Source: Evansella cellulosilytica DSM 2522
Lineage (GTDB): Bacteria > Bacillota > Bacilli > Bacillales > Salisediminibacteriaceae
Direction of reading: 5' to 3'
Assembly: GCF_000177235.2 (NCBI RefSeq)
Contig: NC_014829.1
Span: 3,100,001-3,164,000, forward strand
Length of the DNA: 64,000 bases
Positions 3,509 to 32,255 of the stretch are shown here, in pieces. The translations under genes were made by a program, and so were the position numbers. The notes below the pieces were generated by a model, which saw nothing but the letters and a program-made list of their open reading frames with translations, ran no database searches and was not told the origin of the DNA. The stretch's first letter is position 1. Each line of letters begins with the position of its first letter.

Positions 3509-3790
3509 AATCGTAGGCAATGATAAAGAGTAGTACTTTTCATGTAGCATTTTACAGAGAGTCTGTTGTTTGCTGGGAGCAGATAATGTGGTGAGAAGGA
3601 ATGGACTTTGGAGCCTTCAAGTTGAACTGATACACTCACAGTAGGCTTCGACGTCATTCAAACGTTATATTGAAACCCCTTACTATTTGTAGCTTTGTAG
3701 CGAGGGTAATAAGTGATTTCTTTTTAGAAATAATCAGGGTGGCAACACGGTCCATTCGTCCCTATTCCAGGGATGAATGGGCTTTTTTTT
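3509..3790 (+). promoter_or_regulatory. Tryptophan T-box leader with antiterminator and terminator
   Basis: The leader has the T-box parts in order: the stem I start (AATGATAAAGAGTAGTAC), the specifier region GAA-TGG-ACTTTGGAG with TGG (Trp) at 3602-3604, and the T-box sequence AGGGTGGCAACACGG at 3736-3750. The terminator stem 3752-3763/3769-3780 (12 bp, one G-T) is followed by T8 at 3783-3790. T-box RNAs are established to read uncharged tRNA; here uncharged tRNA-Trp should allow transcription into trpS. The T-box sequence differs a little from the usual AGGGTGGNACCGCG. Confidence 0.93.
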
Positions 3791-3829: not shown

Positions 3830-4843
<1,014 letters not shown>

Positions 4844-7611: not shown

Positions 7612-8328
7612 ATGAAAAACAATGAAACACTAAAGGAATATACCCCTTTCTTTGATCAGTTACGTGATGAAGATCAACATACATTGTTATTACACGGACA
7701 AGAAGTTTTTATAAGAAAGGGCCAAATACTATTTTACGAGGGAGAAGAAGCTAATCACCTATATCTTATTAAAAGTGGTCAAGTTAGATTAAGTAAAATG
7801 ACAATTGACCAAAAAATGTTTTTCCTTCACTTAAAGCAGAAAGGTGATGTTTTTGGAGAGTATTGCTTATTTAATGACATGAGCGCAAGTATGACTAGCG
7901 AAGTAGTCCAAGATGCAACTTTAATTAGATTTGATAAAAAAGACTTAGAAGCTCTATTTTCTCAACACGGGGAAATTGCAGTTGCATTTATTAAGTTGTT
8001 TGCCCGTAATACACAATCAACGCAGGCGAAATTTTCTGATTTGCTTTTATACGGAAAAACAGGCGCTTTTTATTCTATATTAATTCGGTTTGCAAACTCT
8101 TATGGTGTATCACATCCAAAAGGGATTCGTATTAATAAAAAGCTTACAAACCAAGACATTGCTCACTTCATAGGAACAAGTCGTGAGACGATTAACCGTC
8201 TGTTAAATGATTTAAAGCAAGATAATATCGTTTATATGGAACGTGGATATATTGTTCTTACTAATATTAATACGTTAAAGAATTACGTTCAATGTGGTAA
8301 ATGCCCTTTAGAGATCTGTACAATATAG
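7612..8328 (+). CDS. fnr: Fnr-type [4Fe-4S] Crp/Fnr regulator, first paralogue
   Basis: 238 residues: a cyclic-nucleotide-like beta-barrel, a dimerisation helix, and a helix-turn-helix near LTNQDIAHFIGTSRETINRLLNDL. The C terminus carries C228-x2-C231-x4-C236 (CGKCPLEIC), and Asp143 lies at the place of the fourth ligand. This is the layout established for B. subtilis Fnr, whose cluster senses oxygen and which binds TGTGA-N6-TCACA. I start at ATG 7612; the frame extends back to 7498 but the paralogue at 20565 supports the shorter form, although only a modest AAAGG site is present. It stands alone here; its likely targets lie 12-23 kb away. Confidence 0.92.
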   Translation: MKNNETLKEYTPFFDQLRDEDQHTLLLHGQEVFIRKGQILFYEGEEANHLYLIKSGQVRLSKMTIDQKMFFLHLKQKGDVFGEYCLFNDMSASMTSEVVQDATLIRFDKKDLEALFSQHGEIAVAFIKLFARNTQSTQAKFSDLLLYGKTGAFYSILIRFANSYGVSHPKGIRINKKLTNQDIAHFIGTSRETINRLLNDLKQDNIVYMERGYIVLTNINTLKNYVQCGKCPLEICTI

Positions 8329-18953: not shown

Positions 18954-18995
18954 GGTTGACTCATAGTATAGAATTGAATCTTTTGAGTCAACCTC
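18954..18995. repeat. Solo GACTCA-type hairpin downstream of ywiC
   Basis: GGTTGACTCA pairs with TGAGTCAACC around a 20-nt loop and overlaps the ywiC stop. It belongs to the hairpin family also seen at 12690, 22977, 40571 and 61260, and may end ywiC transcription. Nothing else is supported in 18562-18953. Confidence 0.7.
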
Positions 18996-19722
18996 AAATG
19001 TGATGAAGGATGATAAAAATGAAGAATAGTAAACTGTTTATTATTTCAACAATTCCTATATTCATAGGCTTCTTTAATAGCTGTTTTGGAAATGCAATTG
19101 CTTTAAGGAATGTAATAATGAAGACAATAGCTATAAGATAATATTGCAGATAAATAGTGATGATTACTATTGCAATATGGTACGCAAATGACCATTTGTG
19201 GAATAACCGGTTATTCTTTTCCCTTATTAATGATTTAACATGAAAAACACTGCTAGTAAAGTATAAAACAGTTAAAAACAAGTAAGTAAATACATGACCT
19301 TGTAAAACATTTCCACTTATAATATGAGCAATAGGCAAAAGACTAGATAACGCAACAATAGCGATCAAATCATTAATAAACCATCTTTCCCTCTTTGTTT
19401 TTGCAAAATAAACGTTACAAGCAAATAGGGCAATAATAACGCTTCCTATAAATAGAATATGTGGGTATATGATCACGTAAGGAACAGTAAACATCCCCCC
19501 TATGATCATGTATACTATGAAGGATGGCCACACATCACTTTTTTTCGTATTTCTTATATACGTTAATAAAGGCGATTGGGCAAAATAAAAGGAAAATACT
19601 CCTAAAAAAAATAGTAGGTGTCCCCATTGAAAACCGCTAGTTATTGCTCCTATCCAGTAAGGGACAATAAGCATCGCCCACGCACCATGCTCTCTTGGAA
19701 TGTACCATTTCATCTCATTCAC
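18994..19722 (-). CDS. ywiC: YwiC-family membrane protein
   Basis: 242 residues with about eight membrane helices and the family opening YIPREHGAWAMLIVPYWIGA. B. subtilis ywiC lies beside fnr and narGHJI and is part of the anaerobic/nitrate neighbourhood; its function is not established. Here too it lies close to fnr and narK, and an exact Fnr box sits 41.5 bp ahead of a predicted start for this gene. It is probably an Fnr target made under low oxygen. Confidence 0.88.
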   Translation of the reverse strand: MNEMKWYIPREHGAWAMLIVPYWIGAITSGFQWGHLLFFLGVFSFYFAQSPLLTYIRNTKKSDVWPSFIVYMIIGGMFTVPYVIIYPHILFIGSVIIALFACNVYFAKTKRERWFINDLIAIVALSSLLPIAHIISGNVLQGHVFTYLFLTVLYFTSSVFHVKSLIREKNNRLFHKWSFAYHIAIVIITIYLQYYLIAIVFIITFLKAIAFPKQLLKKPMNIGIVEIINSLLFFIFIILHHI

Positions 19723-19856: not shown

Positions 19857-19899
19857 ATAATAAAGGAATTTTAACATAAAGTTTGTGATAAATATCACA
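19857..19899 (-). promoter_or_regulatory. Fnr-dependent promoter of ywiC
   Basis: TGTGATAAATATCACA (19884-19899) is an exact Fnr box centred at 19891.5. A TATTAT -10 on the minus strand (19857-19862) puts the box at -41.5, the class II Fnr position. In the other direction, toward 19985, the best -10 (TATACA at 19927) would place it near -47.5. A second inverted repeat, TGATGT-N5-ACATCA (19919-19935), lies on that side. Confidence 0.85.
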
Positions 19900-19984
19900 T
19901 TTCATAAAGACATATATGTGATGTTTTATACATCATATACAGACTTTATTTGTTATTGTAATGTACATATAAGGAGGTTTTTAT

Positions 19985-20521
19985 ATGTTAAGTGTAAAGA
20001 TTACGTACAAAAAAGAGCCTAATCTTCATGAGTTTCTTGAAGATTTAGGTTTTAAAAATAAAAATGGTATATTTGTTAAGAAGCTCTCTAAAATCTCTAG
20101 AAAAGAGCTAAAAGGCCAATTAGATAAAGACCTTTTAGTTCTCACTTTTCCTGAAAATGTAACAATGGATGATTGTGAGCAAATTTATGGTTTAATTAAA
20201 AGCATTGATGATAATCTCGATTGCCACATCGATGATGCTAAAGCACATTTAGGCTATGACTCAGAAGGTAACAAAGTTAATGTATACCATGGATTTCCAT
20301 CATGGACAAAATATATCAATAAAGCGAAACACCGTTCTCTAGAAGGACAACGAGTTGTCATTTTCCATGGTGAAGAAGAACTCGGTCACGGTATTCTTTT
20401 AACGTACGAGGAAGTAGTTAGCGATGATCACAAAATAAAATCCATTTCCTGTACTCTTTTAACTACTTCAGGGGAACAATCTTTTTTTGGTGAAGATCTA
20501 CACCTCGAACCTTTAATGTAA
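19985..20521 (+). CDS. Hypothetical protein, probable Fnr-region gene
   Basis: 178 residues, cytoplasmic, no membrane segment, with AAGGAGG before the ATG. The middle has acidic stretches (DDCEQIYGLIKSIDDNLD) and the C-terminal part looks like a small beta-domain (QRVVIFHGEEELGHGILLTY). I recognise no family; B. subtilis has an uncharacterised ywiD next to ywiC, and I cannot confirm a match. It shares a regulatory region with ywiC and converges with the second fnr, so a role in anaerobic growth is an inference. Confidence 0.7.
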   Translation: MLSVKITYKKEPNLHEFLEDLGFKNKNGIFVKKLSKISRKELKGQLDKDLLVLTFPENVTMDDCEQIYGLIKSIDDNLDCHIDDAKAHLGYDSEGNKVNVYHGFPSWTKYINKAKHRSLEGQRVVIFHGEEELGHGILLTYEEVVSDDHKIKSISCTLLTTSGEQSFFGEDLHLEPLM

Positions 20522-20564: not shown

Positions 20565-21275
20565 TTAAATTGTACATATTTCAACTGGACAATCACCACA
20601 ATGTAAATAATCTTTAAAAAATTGTATATTATGAATAGTAATATATCCGTCTTTCATCGATAAGATATTAGTTTTTTTCAAATCATTGAGCATACGATTG
20701 ACACTTTCACGTGTCGTCCCTATATAGTTTGCAATATCTTGGTTTGTTAGTTGTACATTAATAAAGATGGAACCATCTCTATCTTCACCATATGAATTAC
20801 TAAATCGTATCAGTGTTGAATATAAGGCACCAGTCTTTCCACAAAGAATTAGATCGCGAAACTTTGCTTGTGTAGACTGTGTATGTCTTGCAAACCATTT
20901 CATAAAGGCAACAGCAATTTCACCATTTTCACGAAATAACTCTTCTAATGTATGTCTATCAAATCGAACAAGTGTAGCATCATCAATCACTTCGGCCGTT
21001 ACACTAATTGCCATTTCATTAAATAATCCTACCTCACCGACAAGTTCGTCTTTCTGCTTTAAATGAACGGAAAACTCTTTTCCATCCGCTGTCATTTTAC
21101 TTAACCGCACTTTGCCAGAGCACACTAAATATACATGCTCAGGAAAATCCCCTTCGTAAAAGAGAAATGTTCCACTTTTTACTTTTATCTCTAATCCATA
21201 ACTAAGTAATAGCTTTTGGTTTTCCTCTGAGAGTTCATTAAAGAATCTTTTCATCTGGAGTTGCTTCTTATTCAT
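20565..21275 (-). CDS. fnr: Fnr-type [4Fe-4S] Crp/Fnr regulator, second paralogue
   Basis: 236 residues with the same layout as the protein at 7612: sensory beta-barrel, dimer helix, helix-turn-helix (LTNQDIANYIGTTRESVNRMLNDL), and C226-x2-C229-x4-C234 (CGDCPVEIC) with Asp141 as likely fourth cluster ligand, as in B. subtilis Fnr. It lies beside ywiC and narK, so it is the positional match to B. subtilis fnr. No Fnr box is seen in its own upstream region (21276-21556). Its probable targets are the six boxes between 19.9 and 30.9 kb. Confidence 0.94.
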   Translation of the reverse strand: MNKKQLQMKRFFNELSEENQKLLLSYGLEIKVKSGTFLFYEGDFPEHVYLVCSGKVRLSKMTADGKEFSVHLKQKDELVGEVGLFNEMAISVTAEVIDDATLVRFDRHTLEELFRENGEIAVAFMKWFARHTQSTQAKFRDLILCGKTGALYSTLIRFSNSYGEDRDGSIFINVQLTNQDIANYIGTTRESVNRMLNDLKKTNILSMKDGYITIHNIQFFKDYLHCGDCPVEICTI

Positions 21276-24336: not shown

Positions 24337-26460
24337 TTACACCTTTTTTAATTTCACGGCACACACTTTAAACTCAGGCATACGTGATGTTGGATCTAAA
24401 GCCGGATTAGTTAACTTATTTACAGACAGCTCTTTTCCCCAGTGATACGGGATAAAGACATGGTCCTTTCTAATTGCTTTCGTTATTTTTGATTTCACTG
24501 TCATCGATCCACGTTTTGTTTCTAAAAACACGTCATCACCATCTTGAATCGCATATGTCGAAGCGAGATCTGGATGCATTTCTACGTACGGTTCAGGACA
24601 TTTTTCCATTAAGAAATCTGTTCTTCTTGTTTGTGTACCGGATAAATAGTGAAAAACGACACGTCCAGTTGTTAATGTATGTGGATAATCATCACTAGGC
24701 GTTTCATCTGGCTCTTGCCAGTCCACGACTGCTAAATTAGCTTTTCCATCAGGTGTTTCAAATTTTTCTTTAAACATCGTTGGTGTTCCTGGGTGGTCCT
24801 CAGAAGGACATGGCCAAAAGATACCATCTTCCTTTTCTATTCTTTCGTATGTGATTCCAAAGTAGTCTGCTTTACCACCCTTTGAAGCTATTCTAAACTC
24901 TTGGAAAATCTGATCGACATTTTCATAACCGAAGTACTGATCTTTCCCCATTCGTTCAGCAATTAAGTTCATAATTTCCCAGTCAGGCTTCGACTCTCCA
25001 ATTGGATCCTTTACCTTTCGAATTCGAATAACTCTACCTTCTAGGTTTGTCGTAGTCCCTTCATCTTCTGCCCAAGTCGTTGCAGGAAGGATAACATCGG
25101 CAAATTCTGCTGTTTCAGATAAGAAAAAGTCACTTACAACCATAAAATCAAGCTTATTAAACCCATCCCAAATATAGTGATTGTTTGGTGCAGAAACTGC
25201 TGGGTTACTACAAATAACATGCATCGCTCGAATGTTTCCTGCTTGTATTTCATCAAACATTTCATAAGCGGAAACACCTGCTTTTGGCATTTCAGATGGA
25301 TCGATACCCCACACTTTTGAAACGTATTCGACATGATCAGGGTTATCAATTTTACGATATCCTGGCAATGCATCAGCTTTTTGTCCGTGTTCACGACCAC
25401 CTTGGCCGTTCCCTTGTCCAGTAAACGTGGCAACACCTGAAGCAAATTTACCTATTTGACCTCTTAAAAGGGCCATAGAAGTATATAAACAAACATTATC
25501 TACACCTTTTGATTGCTGCTCTACACCTCTAGCAAACATTACAACAGATCTTGGTGATTTCCCGAATATTTGAGCTGCTTTTATTAGCTTTTCAACTGAA
25601 ACCCCTGTAATTTCTGAAGTGTATTTAGGAGTAAACTTTTTCACGGACTCTTTTAACTGTTCAAAATTGTTACATCTTTCGTTCACATATTCTTCATCTA
25701 CATAACCGCCTTGAATGAGAAGATGCATCATGCCATTTGCTAACGCAGAATCTGTTCCTGCCTTTAGATCAAGGTGAACATCTGCGATTCTTGCAGTTGG
25801 TGTTTCTCTTGGGTCCGCAACGATCATTTTTGCTCCTTTATCACGTGCTTTCCAAAGCCATTGAATAGTAGTTGGATGACATTCTGCAGTGTTAGATCCT
25901 GCCATAAAGAAGCAATCTGTATGCTCTAGCTCTGGCCAAGGGAGTGTCGATCCACGATCTAATCCGAGAGTTTTCATAAACCCGCCAGCCGCAGAGGACA
26001 TACAAAAACGACCATTATAATCAACGTAGCGCGTGCCAAGGCCCACTCTTGCATATTTTCCGACTAAATAACACTTTTCATTTGTCATTGACACCCCACC
26101 GAACACTGACAAAGCATCTTTACCATGTTCTTTCTGAATACGTTTAAAGTTCTTTTCTATAAGATCTAAAGCTTCTCCCCAACTACTTTCAACGAATTTG
26201 CCATTCTTTTTTATTAGTGGTCTTTTTATACGTTCAGGATGATCAATCGTTTGATATGCCGTCACACCTTTAGGGCACATTTTCCCTTTCGTAACTGGCC
26301 AATCATATCGTGGTTCTACACCTACAACATTTCCAGTTTTTTCGTTTACACGAATGTGCATCCCACATTGCATACCACAGTAACAGCAGTGAGTCGTAAT
26401 GAGTTTTTCACCTTTATGCTGAAGGTTTTTAACCCCTGGCTTTACAACAAATTGTGTCAT
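24337..26460 (-). CDS. Molybdopterin oxidoreductase, NasC/NapA-like probable nitrate reductase
   Basis: 707 residues of the DMSO-reductase superfamily. An N-terminal [4Fe-4S] site is formed by C25-x2-C28-x3-C32...C62 (CCYCGMQC and MCPKG). Cys153 in GRFCMSSA is the expected Mo ligand, as in Nap/Nas enzymes. The cofactor region NGQGGREHGQKADALPGYR and the C-terminal molybdopterin domain are present. There is no Tat or Sec signal, so it is cytoplasmic. From Cys ligation and the linked narK it is most likely a nitrate reductase, here with a respiratory rather than NADH-linked gene set. Another substrate cannot be excluded. Its ATG directly follows the stop of the cytochrome b gene. Confidence 0.88.
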   Translation of the reverse strand: MTQFVVKPGVKNLQHKGEKLITTHCCYCGMQCGMHIRVNEKTGNVVGVEPRYDWPVTKGKMCPKGVTAYQTIDHPERIKRPLIKKNGKFVESSWGEALDLIEKNFKRIQKEHGKDALSVFGGVSMTNEKCYLVGKYARVGLGTRYVDYNGRFCMSSAAGGFMKTLGLDRGSTLPWPELEHTDCFFMAGSNTAECHPTTIQWLWKARDKGAKMIVADPRETPTARIADVHLDLKAGTDSALANGMMHLLIQGGYVDEEYVNERCNNFEQLKESVKKFTPKYTSEITGVSVEKLIKAAQIFGKSPRSVVMFARGVEQQSKGVDNVCLYTSMALLRGQIGKFASGVATFTGQGNGQGGREHGQKADALPGYRKIDNPDHVEYVSKVWGIDPSEMPKAGVSAYEMFDEIQAGNIRAMHVICSNPAVSAPNNHYIWDGFNKLDFMVVSDFFLSETAEFADVILPATTWAEDEGTTTNLEGRVIRIRKVKDPIGESKPDWEIMNLIAERMGKDQYFGYENVDQIFQEFRIASKGGKADYFGITYERIEKEDGIFWPCPSEDHPGTPTMFKEKFETPDGKANLAVVDWQEPDETPSDDYPHTLTTGRVVFHYLSGTQTRRTDFLMEKCPEPYVEMHPDLASTYAIQDGDDVFLETKRGSMTVKSKITKAIRKDHVFIPYHWGKELSVNKLTNPALDPTSRMPEFKVCAVKLKKV

Positions 26461-27603
26461 CTAATTGTCCCCCTTATTGTTTCTATCATAAAAATCTTCT
26501 GTTCTTTCTCGTCCAAATCCCGGTATATGAATACCGTTATTCGTTTGAATTGGTCCATTTGATTCCCCAAACGGTGATTTCATGTTCAGCTGACTCATGA
26601 CACGAATTTTTCTTCGACATGCTGTACAGTAATCAGATAACTGCTTTCCATCACTCATTTCAAAGTGGAAAGCCTGAGCCCCTAATATACTTTGTACATC
26701 AGCAATTTGATCATCATTTGAATATTGCTCACCACATCCACTACACTTCTTCGTATCAACACCAACCTCTTCCTGATAGTTCATTGGTACTGCAGCAGCC
26801 ATCGGACGAATCGGTAAGTGAAAGAGCTTTCCAAATGGGAAATATACTAGAAACATAACAGTTGTTACTTGATGTAGAAGTTGTAGTTCTGGATGCATCC
26901 AGCCGCCTAAAAGCTTATAAGATACTGTTAAAAATAAACCTGTAGCTGTCATTGCTAACAATAAATATAGTGGTAACAAATCAAATTCTGCCCTTTGCGT
27001 AACTTGCAAATCTTTATTACCAATTCGACGAACGATCGCCATAATAACACCTATTAAAAGCATAGTTGCTGTAATATTTAAGCCTTCAAATATCATACTT
27101 GCTAAAAATCCATCTGGATGCATTTCAATTGCTGGAATTCCAAAGACAACCATTTGATATGTCGTAGCATCGACTAATCTAAAGTGCATCCATCCAAACG
27201 TTAAACCAAACGTTATCGCTAATGAGCCGATACATCCCCAAGCAATTAGCCAATGTTGAATACCTCTGTAAATTCCTCGTTTAAAAATGTATTTCTGCAA
27301 AATAATATTATCGAAAAGCGTTTTTAATATAGATTTAAAATTTCTTTTTTGACGTTTTTTCGTTTTCATATTTTTAAATGACCGTTTTAATACTTCTCTA
27401 GTTGCAGGACGCATTGCCCAAGAAGTTAACCGAACTGTCATTCCGATAAAAAATATATACGATGCAACCATATATCCAGATAACATTAAATCTATCTTTG
27501 CAAACTGCCCAGTTCCAATCCACATAAGGACAAACAAAATCATAACAACGAAAAATGAGTACATACTAGCTTTTGAATAAAAGGATCTTTCTATATTCCT
27601 CAT
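26461..27603 (-). CDS. NarI/DsrM-like membrane cytochrome b with a Cys4 tail
   Basis: 380 residues. Six or so membrane helices hold candidate haem ligands, such as His in IQHWLIAWG, WMHFRLV, GWMHPELQLLHQ and FPFGKLFHLPIRP; the last two resemble the NarI, HdrE and DsrM quinol-oxidising cytochromes. A cytoplasmic C-terminal part carries two CxxC pairs (CSGCGEQ and CTACRRK), possibly binding zinc or iron. GGAGG precedes the ATG. It is the first gene of the operon, under a box-plus-TACAAT Fnr promoter, and should pass quinol electrons to the ferredoxin and molybdoenzyme. Confidence 0.85.
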   Translation of the reverse strand: MRNIERSFYSKASMYSFFVVMILFVLMWIGTGQFAKIDLMLSGYMVASYIFFIGMTVRLTSWAMRPATREVLKRSFKNMKTKKRQKRNFKSILKTLFDNIILQKYIFKRGIYRGIQHWLIAWGCIGSLAITFGLTFGWMHFRLVDATTYQMVVFGIPAIEMHPDGFLASMIFEGLNITATMLLIGVIMAIVRRIGNKDLQVTQRAEFDLLPLYLLLAMTATGLFLTVSYKLLGGWMHPELQLLHQVTTVMFLVYFPFGKLFHLPIRPMAAAVPMNYQEEVGVDTKKCSGCGEQYSNDDQIADVQSILGAQAFHFEMSDGKQLSDYCTACRRKIRVMSQLNMKSPFGESNGPIQTNNGIHIPGFGRERTEDFYDRNNKGDN

Positions 27604-27651: not shown

Positions 27652-27694
27652 ATTGTAGAAATCTATCGTCACAACTACTGTGATATCTCTCACA
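27652..27694 (-). promoter_or_regulatory. Fnr-dependent promoter of the nitrate reductase-like operon (box 1)
   Basis: TGTGATATCTCTCACA (27679-27694) is an exact Fnr box. TACAAT on the minus strand (27652-27657) places its centre exactly at -41.5, with the transcript start near 27645, about 40 nt before the cytochrome gene. Confidence 0.92.
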
Positions 27695-27701
27695 GTTAAA
27701 G

Positions 27702-27717
27702 TGTGATTTTCATCACA
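27702..27717. promoter_or_regulatory. Fnr box 2
   Basis: TGTGATTTTCATCACA, an exact TGTGA-N6-TCACA palindrome centred 23 bp upstream of box 1. It may bind a second Fnr dimer. Confidence 0.88.
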
Positions 27718-27737
27718 CTGATACTGTTGATGTGAGG

Positions 27738-27753
27738 TGTGAAAAAAATCACA
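27738..27753. promoter_or_regulatory. Fnr box 3
   Basis: TGTGAAAAAAATCACA, an exact box centred 59 bp upstream of box 1. On the plus strand a TACAAT at 27777-27782 would place it near -43.5, so weak divergent transcription is possible, but no gene is seen that way. Confidence 0.85.
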
Positions 27754-30034: not shown

Positions 30035-30050
30035 TGTGAACCTTATCACA
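30035..30050. promoter_or_regulatory. Fnr box between the LpdD-like gene and the di-haem-type membrane protein
   Basis: TGTGAACCTTATCACA, an exact box. To the right TATACT at 30075-30080 puts it near -44.5; to the left the best hexamer at the ideal place is a poor TACCTT. It could serve one or both divergent genes, with the right-hand gene favoured. Confidence 0.82.
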
Positions 30051-30107: not shown

Positions 30108-30503
30108 ATGAATTATAACGTTGTTATGCTTTCTGGGGTGTTCGCTCTCCTATTATTTTTTTGTAATATCAGTATTTATTTTTTATTTTTATCAATTAGA
30201 AAATGTAAAAAGAGAAGTCTGCAAATATTTTTAGCTAAGTTAGCCCGTAAATGGATGCGCATACATCAACCTGTAGCTTATCTCATTTTTACGGTCATTC
30301 TCATACACTTTTTATTGACTTTGATGCATCATTACCAATTTACATCAAAGACAATAGCTGGTTTATTAGCTGCCATTATCCTCGTCATACTATTGATTTC
30401 TGGGTTTATTCGCCAGCGAAGAGCTAATAAGAAAAGAAAGTTGTTCCACCGTACAATGGCTTTTCTCTGCCTGTTCTTCATTATGATTCATGTTTTAGTA
30501 TAG
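30108..30503 (+). CDS. Small four-helix membrane protein with two His-x13-His pairs
   Basis: 131 residues, four membrane helices separated by basic loops. Helix 2 carries His53 and His67 and helix 4 carries His114 and His128, so both pairs have the 13-residue spacing of bis-haem cytochrome b of the bc1 type. Extra His74/75 lie at the end of helix 2. This strongly suggests a minimal di-haem b protein that moves electrons across the membrane or oxidises quinol; haem binding itself is inferred. I know no named family with this pattern. AGAGGTGAT precedes the ATG and an Fnr box lies upstream. Confidence 0.8.
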   Translation: MNYNVVMLSGVFALLLFFCNISIYFLFLSIRKCKKRSLQIFLAKLARKWMRIHQPVAYLIFTVILIHFLLTLMHHYQFTSKTIAGLLAAIILVILLISGFIRQRRANKKRKLFHRTMAFLCLFFIMIHVLV

Positions 30504-30638
30504 TTTGCGAGGAAAATTGTTTCAGTCATGTGTAGAGGTACTTGAGTGAGCTATAGAAACTTGAGTAGCACGAAGCGATGTTTATTAGTAGAAAACAAAA
30601 AAGTTATTATGTATCGATTTAAGACAATATAGTAAATC

Positions 30639-30688
30639 AAAAAAGACGTTTCTCTCAGTTGTTTTAAAAGCAACTTCGGAAACGTCTT
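30639..30688 (-). terminator. Terminator of the candidate regulatory RNA
   Basis: On the minus strand AAGACGTTTC pairs with GAAACGTCTT, enclosing a second AGTTG/CAACT helix, followed by T6 (the A run at 30639-30644). Confidence 0.85.
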
Positions 30689-30873
30689 CCTCGTTTCGCT
30701 CTTATGATTGGGGGTCACAAGAACGAAATAATAGGGTTGTTACGTTATGATTTGGCAACATTGCTGGTTTTGGGGAAACCAGCTACATAACAAGGTACTA
30801 CATTGGGTTCTTATTTTTAAAAGGAAGTAAAGCTATGAATCGCGGGTACAAATTTTGCATTTGCTTTCGATTC
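30639..30873 (-). ncRNA. Candidate Fnr-dependent C-rich regulatory RNA
   Basis: The minus strand has a promoter (Fnr box 30907-30922, TAAAAT -10) and a terminator (30639-30688) but no credible coding frame between. The predicted 235-nt RNA holds an 8-bp hairpin GCTGGTTT/AAACCAGC with loop CCCCA (30763-30783), enclosed by GTTATG/CATAAC (30744-30791) and AAGAAC/GTTCTT (30719-30812). Two further C-rich stretches are CCCAATG (30801-30807) and CCCCCAATC (30706-30714). C-rich loops are known in Gram-positive small RNAs that pair with Shine-Dalgarno sequences. Existence and function are inferred. Confidence 0.6.
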
Positions 30874-30879
30874 ATTTAT

Positions 30880-30922
30880 ATTTTAACCAAAAAAAACAGA
30901 CAATAATGTGATTAACCTCACA
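30880..30922 (-). promoter_or_regulatory. Fnr-dependent promoter with no coding gene downstream
   Basis: TGTGATTAACCTCACA (30907-30922) is an exact Fnr box centred at 30914.5. TAAAAT at 30880-30885 on the minus strand is one base from the -10 consensus and puts the box at exactly -41.5, with start (G) at 30873. On the plus strand no good -10 is in register. Confidence 0.85.
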
Positions 30923-31009: not shown

Positions 31010-31249
31010 TTAGCCGCCACTAACAGGAGGTATAAAAGCAACAGTATCATTATTCTTTACGCGAAGAGAATCATCTGCATACTCTTCATTAACTGCTGGC
31101 ATTGCTGAATGAATACTCGATAGCTTTGGATATTTTTCTAGTAAATAGTCCTTTATCTCCAATACAGTTAGTTCTTGTTCATTAGTAATTGTAATTTCAC
31201 GTTCTCCAGCTTTTTCTTCCAAATCTGCAAATAGTAGCACACGTATCAT
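31010..31249 (-). CDS. moaD: Molybdopterin synthase small subunit
   Basis: 79 residues, a ubiquitin-like sulfur carrier ending in Gly-Gly (IPPVSGG), which is adenylated and thiocarboxylated. With MoaE it adds the dithiolene sulfurs to precursor Z in molybdopterin synthesis. The start overlaps moaE by 4 nt. It is the last gene of moeA-mobB-moaE-moaD, placed next to the molybdoenzyme operon it serves. Confidence 0.94.
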   Translation of the reverse strand: MIRVLLFADLEEKAGEREITITNEQELTVLEIKDYLLEKYPKLSSIHSAMPAVNEEYADDSLRVKNNDTVAFIPPVSGG

Positions 31250-31719
31250 ATGAGATCCTCCTTTTCTGGTTTACCTAGTGGATAAGCCTTCTGTTCCTTT
31301 TGATCACCAATCCACTCTTCTCCATCTTCCCAATGCTCTTTCTTCCAAATTGGTACAATTTCTTTTATTCTCTCTATTGCATATCTACTAGCAACGTAAG
31401 CATCATTACGATGCGGAGTAGATACGGCAATAACGACAGCAATATCAGAAATTTTCAGTTCTCCAATCCGATGAGTAATCGCTACCTTTGCTTCTGGAAA
31501 ATCTCTTTGAATTTCTTCTCCAATTTGCATTAATTTCTTTTCAGCCATTGGAATGTATGCATCATACTTTAAATATAATGTCTTTTTTCCTTTTGTCATC
31601 TCACGAACTGTTCCAATGAATGTATTAATAGCTCCTGCATTTCTGTCCATCACTTTCTCGATTACACTTTGGACATTCACTTCATTATCCGTTATTTGAA
31701 AAAGATCATTTTTTTTCAT
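31246..31719 (-). CDS. moaE: Molybdopterin synthase large subunit
   Basis: 157 residues with MoaE features: GAINTFIGTVREMTKGK, IAVSTPHRNDAYVASRYAIERIKEIVPIWKKE, and the catalytic-pocket Lys residues in WKKEHW. It joins MoaD to form molybdopterin synthase. Its ends overlap mobB and moaD by 4 nt each. Confidence 0.95.
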   Translation of the reverse strand: MKKNDLFQITDNEVNVQSVIEKVMDRNAGAINTFIGTVREMTKGKKTLYLKYDAYIPMAEKKLMQIGEEIQRDFPEAKVAITHRIGELKISDIAVVIAVSTPHRNDAYVASRYAIERIKEIVPIWKKEHWEDGEEWIGDQKEQKAYPLGKPEKEDLI

Positions 31720-32255
31720 AAAGTTTCACCCCTACATAATCGTTCAACTAACCATTTTAAGTAGTTTTTCTCTTCATTTAAATGAAAGACAGGCATTTTT
31801 AAGCTTTCTTTTAAAAGCTTGCTTTCTATTTCATCCCAACAAACGATTATCTCTATATTTTCACATTCGTTTATTAAATGGCGATCCTCACTACTTTTTA
31901 ATAATAATAATTTGCTATATGACTTCTTTTTATATCCCTCAACGATAATGGCATCGAGAGAGAATCGTTGATAGAAATGAAGCACATCTTCAAGGTCTAA
32001 CGTCATTTGTGGCGACATGTCCCACTGAAATTGATGATCACTAACTACAAATGAGCCCACTGCACCAGCTTGACGATGAATATGACTATCTTTGTCTTCT
32101 TTTATAGGCTGTAAGTCTGTTGCATGACCATGGTGCTTAATTGTAGCTACGTCTAATCCAATATTTTTGAGATTAGAAATTATTTTTTTTATTAACGTGG
32201 TCTTCCCACTATTGGAATATCCGACAACTTGAAATACAATTGGTTCTGTATTCAT
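31716..32255 (-). CDS. mobB: Molybdopterin-guanine dinucleotide biosynthesis protein B
   Basis: 179 residues, a P-loop GTP-binding protein with the Walker A motif GYSNSGKTTLIKK and the MobB motif TIKHHGHATDLQP, plus IIVEGYKK. It helps convert molybdopterin to the bis-MGD form that DMSO-reductase-family enzymes such as the one at 24337 need. MobA is not in the window. Four-nt overlaps with moeA and moaE suggest coupled translation. Confidence 0.94.
   Translation of the reverse strand: MNTEPIVFQVVGYSNSGKTTLIKKIISNLKNIGLDVATIKHHGHATDLQPIKEDKDSHIHRQAGAVGSFVVSDHQFQWDMSPQMTLDLEDVLHFYQRFSLDAIIVEGYKKKSYSKLLLLKSSEDRHLINECENIEIIVCWDEIESKLLKESLKMPVFHLNEEKNYLKWLVERLCRGETL

Follow-up and report, generated by a model that had tools for sequence, protein, structure and literature searches.

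A predicted small RNA of Evansella cellulosilytica and its relatives, with an Fnr-type promoter and segments complementary to the translation starts of qcrC and ctaC

A stretch of 235 nt on the minus strand of the Evansella cellulosilytica DSM 2522 genome very probably encodes a small RNA with its own class II Fnr promoter, and this RNA probably acts in trans to silence qcrC and ctaC when oxygen is absent. This reading is drawn from sequence comparison. Portions of the predicted RNA are complementary to the translation starts of these two aerobic genes, both of which are encoded elsewhere; thus, once induced by Fnr in cells deprived of oxygen, the RNA most likely would keep complexes III and IV from being translated. 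The DNA considered here is a window of 64,000 nt (positions 3100001-3164000 of the genome, which is a single contig of 4,681,672 bases), and all coordinates refer to this window.

Between 30922 and 30639, read on the minus strand, an exact Fnr-type box, a -10 element, the 235-nt stretch and a terminator follow one another. A preliminary description of this DNA had claimed an exact Fnr box (TGTGATTAACCTCACA) at 30907-30922, a TAAAAT hexamer at 30880-30885 that sets the start at 30873 and thus places the box centre at -41.5, and a terminator with a T6 tract at 30639-30688. All three are present as described, the box having no mismatch. The elements of the RNA gene, together with its neighbours and the candidate regulators, are:

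30907..30922, minus strand: Fnr-type box TGTGAGGTTAATCACA, centred at -41.5, the class II position
30880..30885, minus strand: -10 hexamer TAAAAT, giving a predicted +1 at 30873
30639..30873, minus strand: predicted small RNA of 235 nt, based on its fold (z of -8.2) and its homologues
30819..30846, minus strand: motif M1, antisense to the Shine-Dalgarno sequence and start codon of qcrC
30800..30810, minus strand: motif M2, the conserved linker GAACCCAAYGU
30763..30783, minus strand: hairpin with a C-rich loop (M3) and a covarying stem
30734..30744, minus strand: motif M4, CGUAACAACCC here and CGUNACAAACCC or nearly so in most relatives, predicted to pair with the ctaC ribosome-binding site
30694..30728, minus strand: hairpin with the conserved loop ACCCCCAA (M5), a possible Shine-Dalgarno binder
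30639..30688, minus strand: intrinsic terminator with T6
31010..31249, minus strand: moaD, the upstream neighbour on the same strand, at the end of moeA-mobB-moaE-moaD
31716..32255: mobB, assigned by eye
20565..21275, minus strand: Crp/Fnr-family regulator with the C-terminal sequence CGDCPVEICTI, a candidate activator
7612..8328, plus strand: second Crp/Fnr-family regulator, with the C-terminal sequence CGKCPLEICTI, also a candidate activator

The Fnr box is not a chance word, since the genome contains 24 exact copies versus 2 of a reversed control pattern. Six of the exact boxes lie within the window; when two mismatches are allowed, the window yields 33 matches, which is simply the number expected by chance. 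The two regulators encoded in the window share a C-terminal CGxCPxEICTI (C-x2-C-x4-C), which we take to be typical of Bacillus Fnr, and among 17 loci of relatives, 10 carry a reading frame that matches these regulators, on the strand opposite the RNA and downstream of it. From its promoter, the predicted RNA would be expressed under activation by Fnr. The window also holds genes for a molybdopterin oxidoreductase and for molybdenum cofactor synthesis, and several of its other Fnr boxes are seen near reading frames. Three exact boxes are present within 75 bases (27679-27753), upstream of the minus-strand genes at 24337-27603, which encode a membrane protein and a molybdoenzyme resembling formate dehydrogenase or nitrate reductase. 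Another exact box (30035-30050) precedes the gene for a 131-aa membrane protein (30108-30503) that is convergent with the small RNA; this protein weakly resembles cytochrome b561/DUF4405, below the Pfam cut-offs, and has homologues downstream of the RNA in 7 of the 17 loci. Finally, at 19884-19932 an exact box is followed 17 bases on by one with two mismatches, between the divergent frames 18994-19722 and 19985-20521.

Conservation among relatives makes it very likely that an RNA gene with an Fnr promoter exists here. A DNA search of 40 relatives gave matches in nine genomes, the window's own included, and an alignment of the nine cores (A2) was used to build a covariance model (R1) from which the Fnr box was left out. 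Such a search of related genomes had been proposed in the preliminary description; when R1 was applied to 35 genomes of the host family, Salisediminibacteriaceae, 18 of them, from 4 of its 8 genera, gave a match to the RNA, with the box and the CCCCA hairpin conserved. An Fnr box lies upstream in every one of the 18 members (14 exact, 4 with one mismatch), which, since the box is not part of R1, provides independent support for the RNA. The activating position of the box is likewise retained in 18 of 18, with the -10 offset fixed on average: with the sequences aligned on the box, the position 21 bases past it agrees with TATAAT at a mean of 4.94 of the 6 letters, versus 3.89 at the next best offset. 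When R1 was run on 397 genomes of the order, with stricter filters that may lose weak members, all six matches fell within the host family. An exact pattern for the M5 hairpin was found in nine contigs of the genome collection, all belonging to Evansella, Salipaludibacillus or Litchfieldia alkalitelluris. Exact Fnr boxes are also more numerous in carriers of the RNA (median 15.5, n = 18) than in non-carriers (median 8, n = 17; Mann-Whitney p of 3e-4), a comparison that ignores kinship, genome size and completeness, three of the non-carriers being 76-80% complete.

The RNA is predicted to be highly structured. Its calculated fold has an energy of -66 kcal/mol, compared with a mean of -34.6 for shuffled sequences (z of -8.2), and none of 200 shuffles is as low. 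The 8-bp hairpin with the loop CCCCA can be drawn just as first described, and its counterparts in the relatives are conserved and covary. Across the 18-row alignment (A3), which was fitted to the model and is thus biased toward the model's structure, 96.1% of paired cells are standard pairs and 9 of 12 pairs have double changes, a result equalled by none of 500 shuffles. A lenient script, which asks for a T run preceded by a stem of less than -6 kcal/mol, places a terminator-like element after the RNA in 17 of the 18 members and finds none in G022; for the window's own genome the T-tract that it picks falls inside the terminator loop, so that its length of 208 is too short. No Rfam model matches the RNA. 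The sole match over threshold in the window is a T-box elsewhere (leader 3511-3766, before an ORF at 3833-4843 that by eye resembles tryptophanyl-tRNA synthetase), and nine loci searched with E values as high as 1 yielded a single microRNA match, which is below threshold and lies outside the RNA. A plasmid search with the RNA region also gave no match.

The best-supported complementarity is found in M1, the conserved 5' segment of the RNA, whose sequence CAUAGYUUUACUUCCUUU resembles the complement of a Shine-Dalgarno sequence plus start codon. A genome-wide search of nine carrier genomes with the M1-complement pattern, allowing G-U pairs and at most one further mismatch, matches the start of qcrC in all nine. 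Since the search gives 92 matches versus 79 for a control pattern, most of these are due to chance; among the 22 matches listed, two of which are qcrC, one other gene appears in two genomes and none in more. The qcrC product is the cytochrome b/c subunit of menaquinol:cytochrome c reductase, with cytochrome b C-terminal and cytochrome c domains. For the window's genome, the qcrC leader AAAAGGAGGGAAAGCTATGCATCGCGGG lies opposite the RNA segment CCCGCGAUUCAUAGCUUUACUUCCUUUU, giving about 27 nt of pairing over the Shine-Dalgarno sequence, the AUG and the first codons, with an energy of -41.2 kcal/mol versus -22.4 for the next of 84 starts. Ranking of M1 against 80-85 translation starts per genome, which were taken from a simple script rather than annotation and of which 65 were window genes reused for the nine genomes, puts qcrC first in 9 of 9 (-29.8 to -41.2 kcal/mol). 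For six genomes, 1000 shuffled versions of M1 apiece were paired with qcrC, and none reached the energy of the real segment (z of -5.6 to -8.2). The remaining nine carriers also pair with their own qcrC start, at -25.8 to -42.4 kcal/mol, although the values for G003, G046, G022, G011 and G004 come from picking the strongest of 100 sliding segments and are thus favoured. Together, these comparisons make qcrC a likely direct target of the RNA. The preliminary description had emphasized the CCCCA hairpin, which is indeed conserved; the best-supported targeting element is, however, this separate antisense segment at 30819-30846.

The qcrC gene itself is present in all 35 family genomes and has a closely similar start sequence in several genomes without a detected RNA. 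Covariation of the RNA with qcrC between lineages is unsupported by a test of own against cross-genome pairs among the 18 carriers: own pairs average -38.4 kcal/mol versus -37.2 for cross pairs, and the own pair ranks first in 2 of 18. Own pairs hardly exceed cross pairs because the qcrC start is nearly invariant, and the RNA would seem to have adapted to a conserved target. In this test the weakest own pairings among the carriers are those of G022, which falls to -22.0, and G001 (-31.8 kcal/mol). G022 is also a single case in which the qcrC leader (GGAGGTTAAGCT) and the RNA (AGCTAACCTCC) both deviate from the relatives in a matching way, its overall pairing being weak. In many members part of M1 is itself folded, the mean unpaired probability being 0.27-0.89 in the 14 of 18 in which the motif was matched.

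A second segment, M4, points to ctaC of the caa3 oxidase. Terminal-oxidase genes were located through the family PF00115, and their surroundings were then taken. The start of ctaC, GAGGGGUUUGUAACGAG-AUG or nearly so, shows complementarity to the M4 sequence CGUNACAAACCC. When M4 is ranked over the same 80-85 starts, ctaC comes first in 7 of 9 genomes and second in G010. The window's own genome has an eroded M4, with one motif base lost, and ctaC there is only fourth of 84, a rank that depends on the segment chosen (first with a slightly longer one, fourth under the final rule). The evidence that links M4 with ctaC is moderate, and on balance ctaC is probably also a target of the RNA.

These elements suggest the following course of events. 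In the absence of oxygen, Fnr would activate the RNA from the class II promoter, and the intrinsic terminator would end the transcript. The 5' segment of the RNA would then pair over about 27 nt with the qcrC Shine-Dalgarno sequence and AUG, blocking the loading of 30S subunits, while M4 would pair with the ctaC ribosome-binding site. A duplex that covers a Shine-Dalgarno sequence and AUG should, on the standard model of ribosome occlusion, stop initiation; the block to translation would presumably be accompanied by decay of the target mRNAs. With synthesis of menaquinol:cytochrome c reductase and caa3 oxidase off, aerobic respiration would have its cytochrome c branch shut down while Fnr is active, and additional G-rich Shine-Dalgarno sequences may be bound by the remaining C-rich loops. 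The earlier prediction of an Fnr-driven repressor of aerobic genes thus gains support from the box, -10 element and RNA core in 18 of 35 genomes and from the complementarity to qcrC and ctaC.

Alternatively, the region might belong to the moaD operon, as its 3' untranslated end or as a product processed from it, given that the RNA adjoins moaD downstream on the same strand in the window and that in 9 of the 17 loci of relatives blastp of flanking ORFs identifies a homologue of moaD immediately before the RNA. This is very improbable, because the other eight loci have no moaD immediately upstream (in L004 it is more than 1 kb off, and in seven there is none within the ~1.4 kb examined), yet they keep the RNA, the box and the -10 element; an independent gene is therefore favoured over a moaD tail. 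Nor does the interval appear to be coding. A single minus-strand ORF of at least 40 aa overlaps the RNA (55 aa, 30551-30718), and no conserved ORF is seen within the interval among the 18 members, since the longest closed frames vary from 11 to 57 aa and differ in position; the preliminary description, which had regarded a conserved frame, or loss of the hairpin in related genomes, as evidence against its proposal, had likewise reported no credible coding frame, and neither of these two objections is borne out by the sequences. It is harder still to credit that the opposite strand is the functional one, with a Shine-Dalgarno sequence and ATG (AAAGGAAGTAAAGCTATG) that start a small peptide. This pair of signals is conserved among the relatives, but any antisense to the qcrC start necessarily shows them on its opposite strand; moreover, the frames that follow the ATG vary in length and sequence (by eye), and the -10 element, the polarity of the terminator and the covariation of the hairpins all indicate the minus strand.

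A more serious question is how specialized the RNA is. It contains five conserved C-rich or CU-rich segments, and the loops of M3 and M5 are exposed in 16 of the 18 members, where their mean unpaired probability is 0.86 or more; in the other two it is 0.42-0.50. Many other starts among the 80-85 ranked, to which the M3 target ranking was confined, score about -16 to -23 with M3 or M5, and qcrB and qcrA come near the top for M5, but not in every genome. Such features would suit a multi-target C-rich RNA in the style of RoxS or FsrA, which acts through seed pairing on a large set of targets that happens to include qcrC and ctaC, without any special role in aerobic respiration; this reading has appreciable weight, yet we consider it doubtful. 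Against it, the M1-qcrC pairing of about 27 nt takes in the start codon and first codons, exceeds a seed, and has qcrC as its top start in 9 of 9 genomes. Exact-pattern searches with M2 and M5 gave no recurrent partner: the exact complement of M2 has 21 matches in nine genomes, six of which are the RNA's own opposite strand, and by eye the other 15 include no recurrent gene; the exact complement of M5 before an ATG has 11 matches, seven of which are the RNA itself, the other four preceding unrelated frames. The start of sdhC has a G-rich Shine-Dalgarno sequence, yet no conserved extended pairing with the RNA. An Fnr-controlled RNA that silences qcrC and ctaC remains our preferred reading. In a more speculative extension, to which we give somewhat less than an even chance, the RNA would represent an undescribed Fnr-driven family of Evansella and Salipaludibacillus that works as a multi-barrel antisense, each C-rich module serving one mRNA of the aerobic electron chain (M1 for qcrC, M4 for ctaC). 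On this view it would stand in for RoxS/RsaE, which the family lacks, and M1 might be an inverted copy of the qcrC start.

Several known systems resemble the predicted RNA in part. No Fnr-dependent small RNA in Bacillaceae was found in the titles and abstracts of a mainly open-licence literature. Excerpts of a review of nitrate respiration (PMC8139620) name FNR as the regulator of FnrS and NarS in enterobacteria and ResDE as that of RoxS in Bacillus and Staphylococcus, and mention the Fnr-type regulators ANR and FnrL, possibly acting indirectly, for small RNAs of Pseudomonas and Rhodobacter. NrrF of Neisseria meningitidis represses the cytochrome bc1 operon petABC via the 5' UTR, as excerpted from PMC5586341; it is, however, Fur-controlled and iron-responsive, belongs to another phylum, and is likened here by description rather than by sequence. 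IsrR of S. aureus, with three C-rich regions (PMC11257911, in excerpt), and FsrA of B. subtilis (PMC10433868, in excerpt) also direct C-rich motifs against ribosome-binding sites. These RNAs are iron-regulated, however, and the Fur-controlled IsrR is reported to act on enzymes of anaerobic nitrate respiration (PMC11257911).

RoxS/RsaE of Bacillus and Staphylococcus uses C-rich single-stranded regions to pair with Shine-Dalgarno sequences, and an excerpted table for RoxS overexpression lists B. subtilis QcrC at 0.70 (PMC10433868). Unlike the proposed Evansella RNA, it is controlled by ResDE (PMC8139620, in excerpt) and is not known to be under Fnr. Kinship by sequence, which the parallel with RoxS/RsaE in the preliminary description might imply, is not borne out, as the model RF01820 matches none of the 35 family genomes and does match the B. 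subtilis control. FnrS of enterobacteria is similar in circuitry, being an Fnr-activated small RNA reported to repress genes dispensable without oxygen (PMC8139620, in excerpt). It differs in belonging to another phylum, whereas the Evansella RNA has a long qcrC antisense segment and ctaC complementarity; comparison of the two by sequence was through Rfam only and gave no match. If the proposal is correct, Fnr would control a small RNA outside the Proteobacteria as well, and the target is clear enough for testing the whole circuit of oxygen, Fnr, RNA, bc complex and caa3 oxidase, through which a cell without oxygen would stop building respiratory machinery of no further use. It would then be an independent answer, in a family without detectable RoxS, to the problem solved by FnrS and partly by RoxS.
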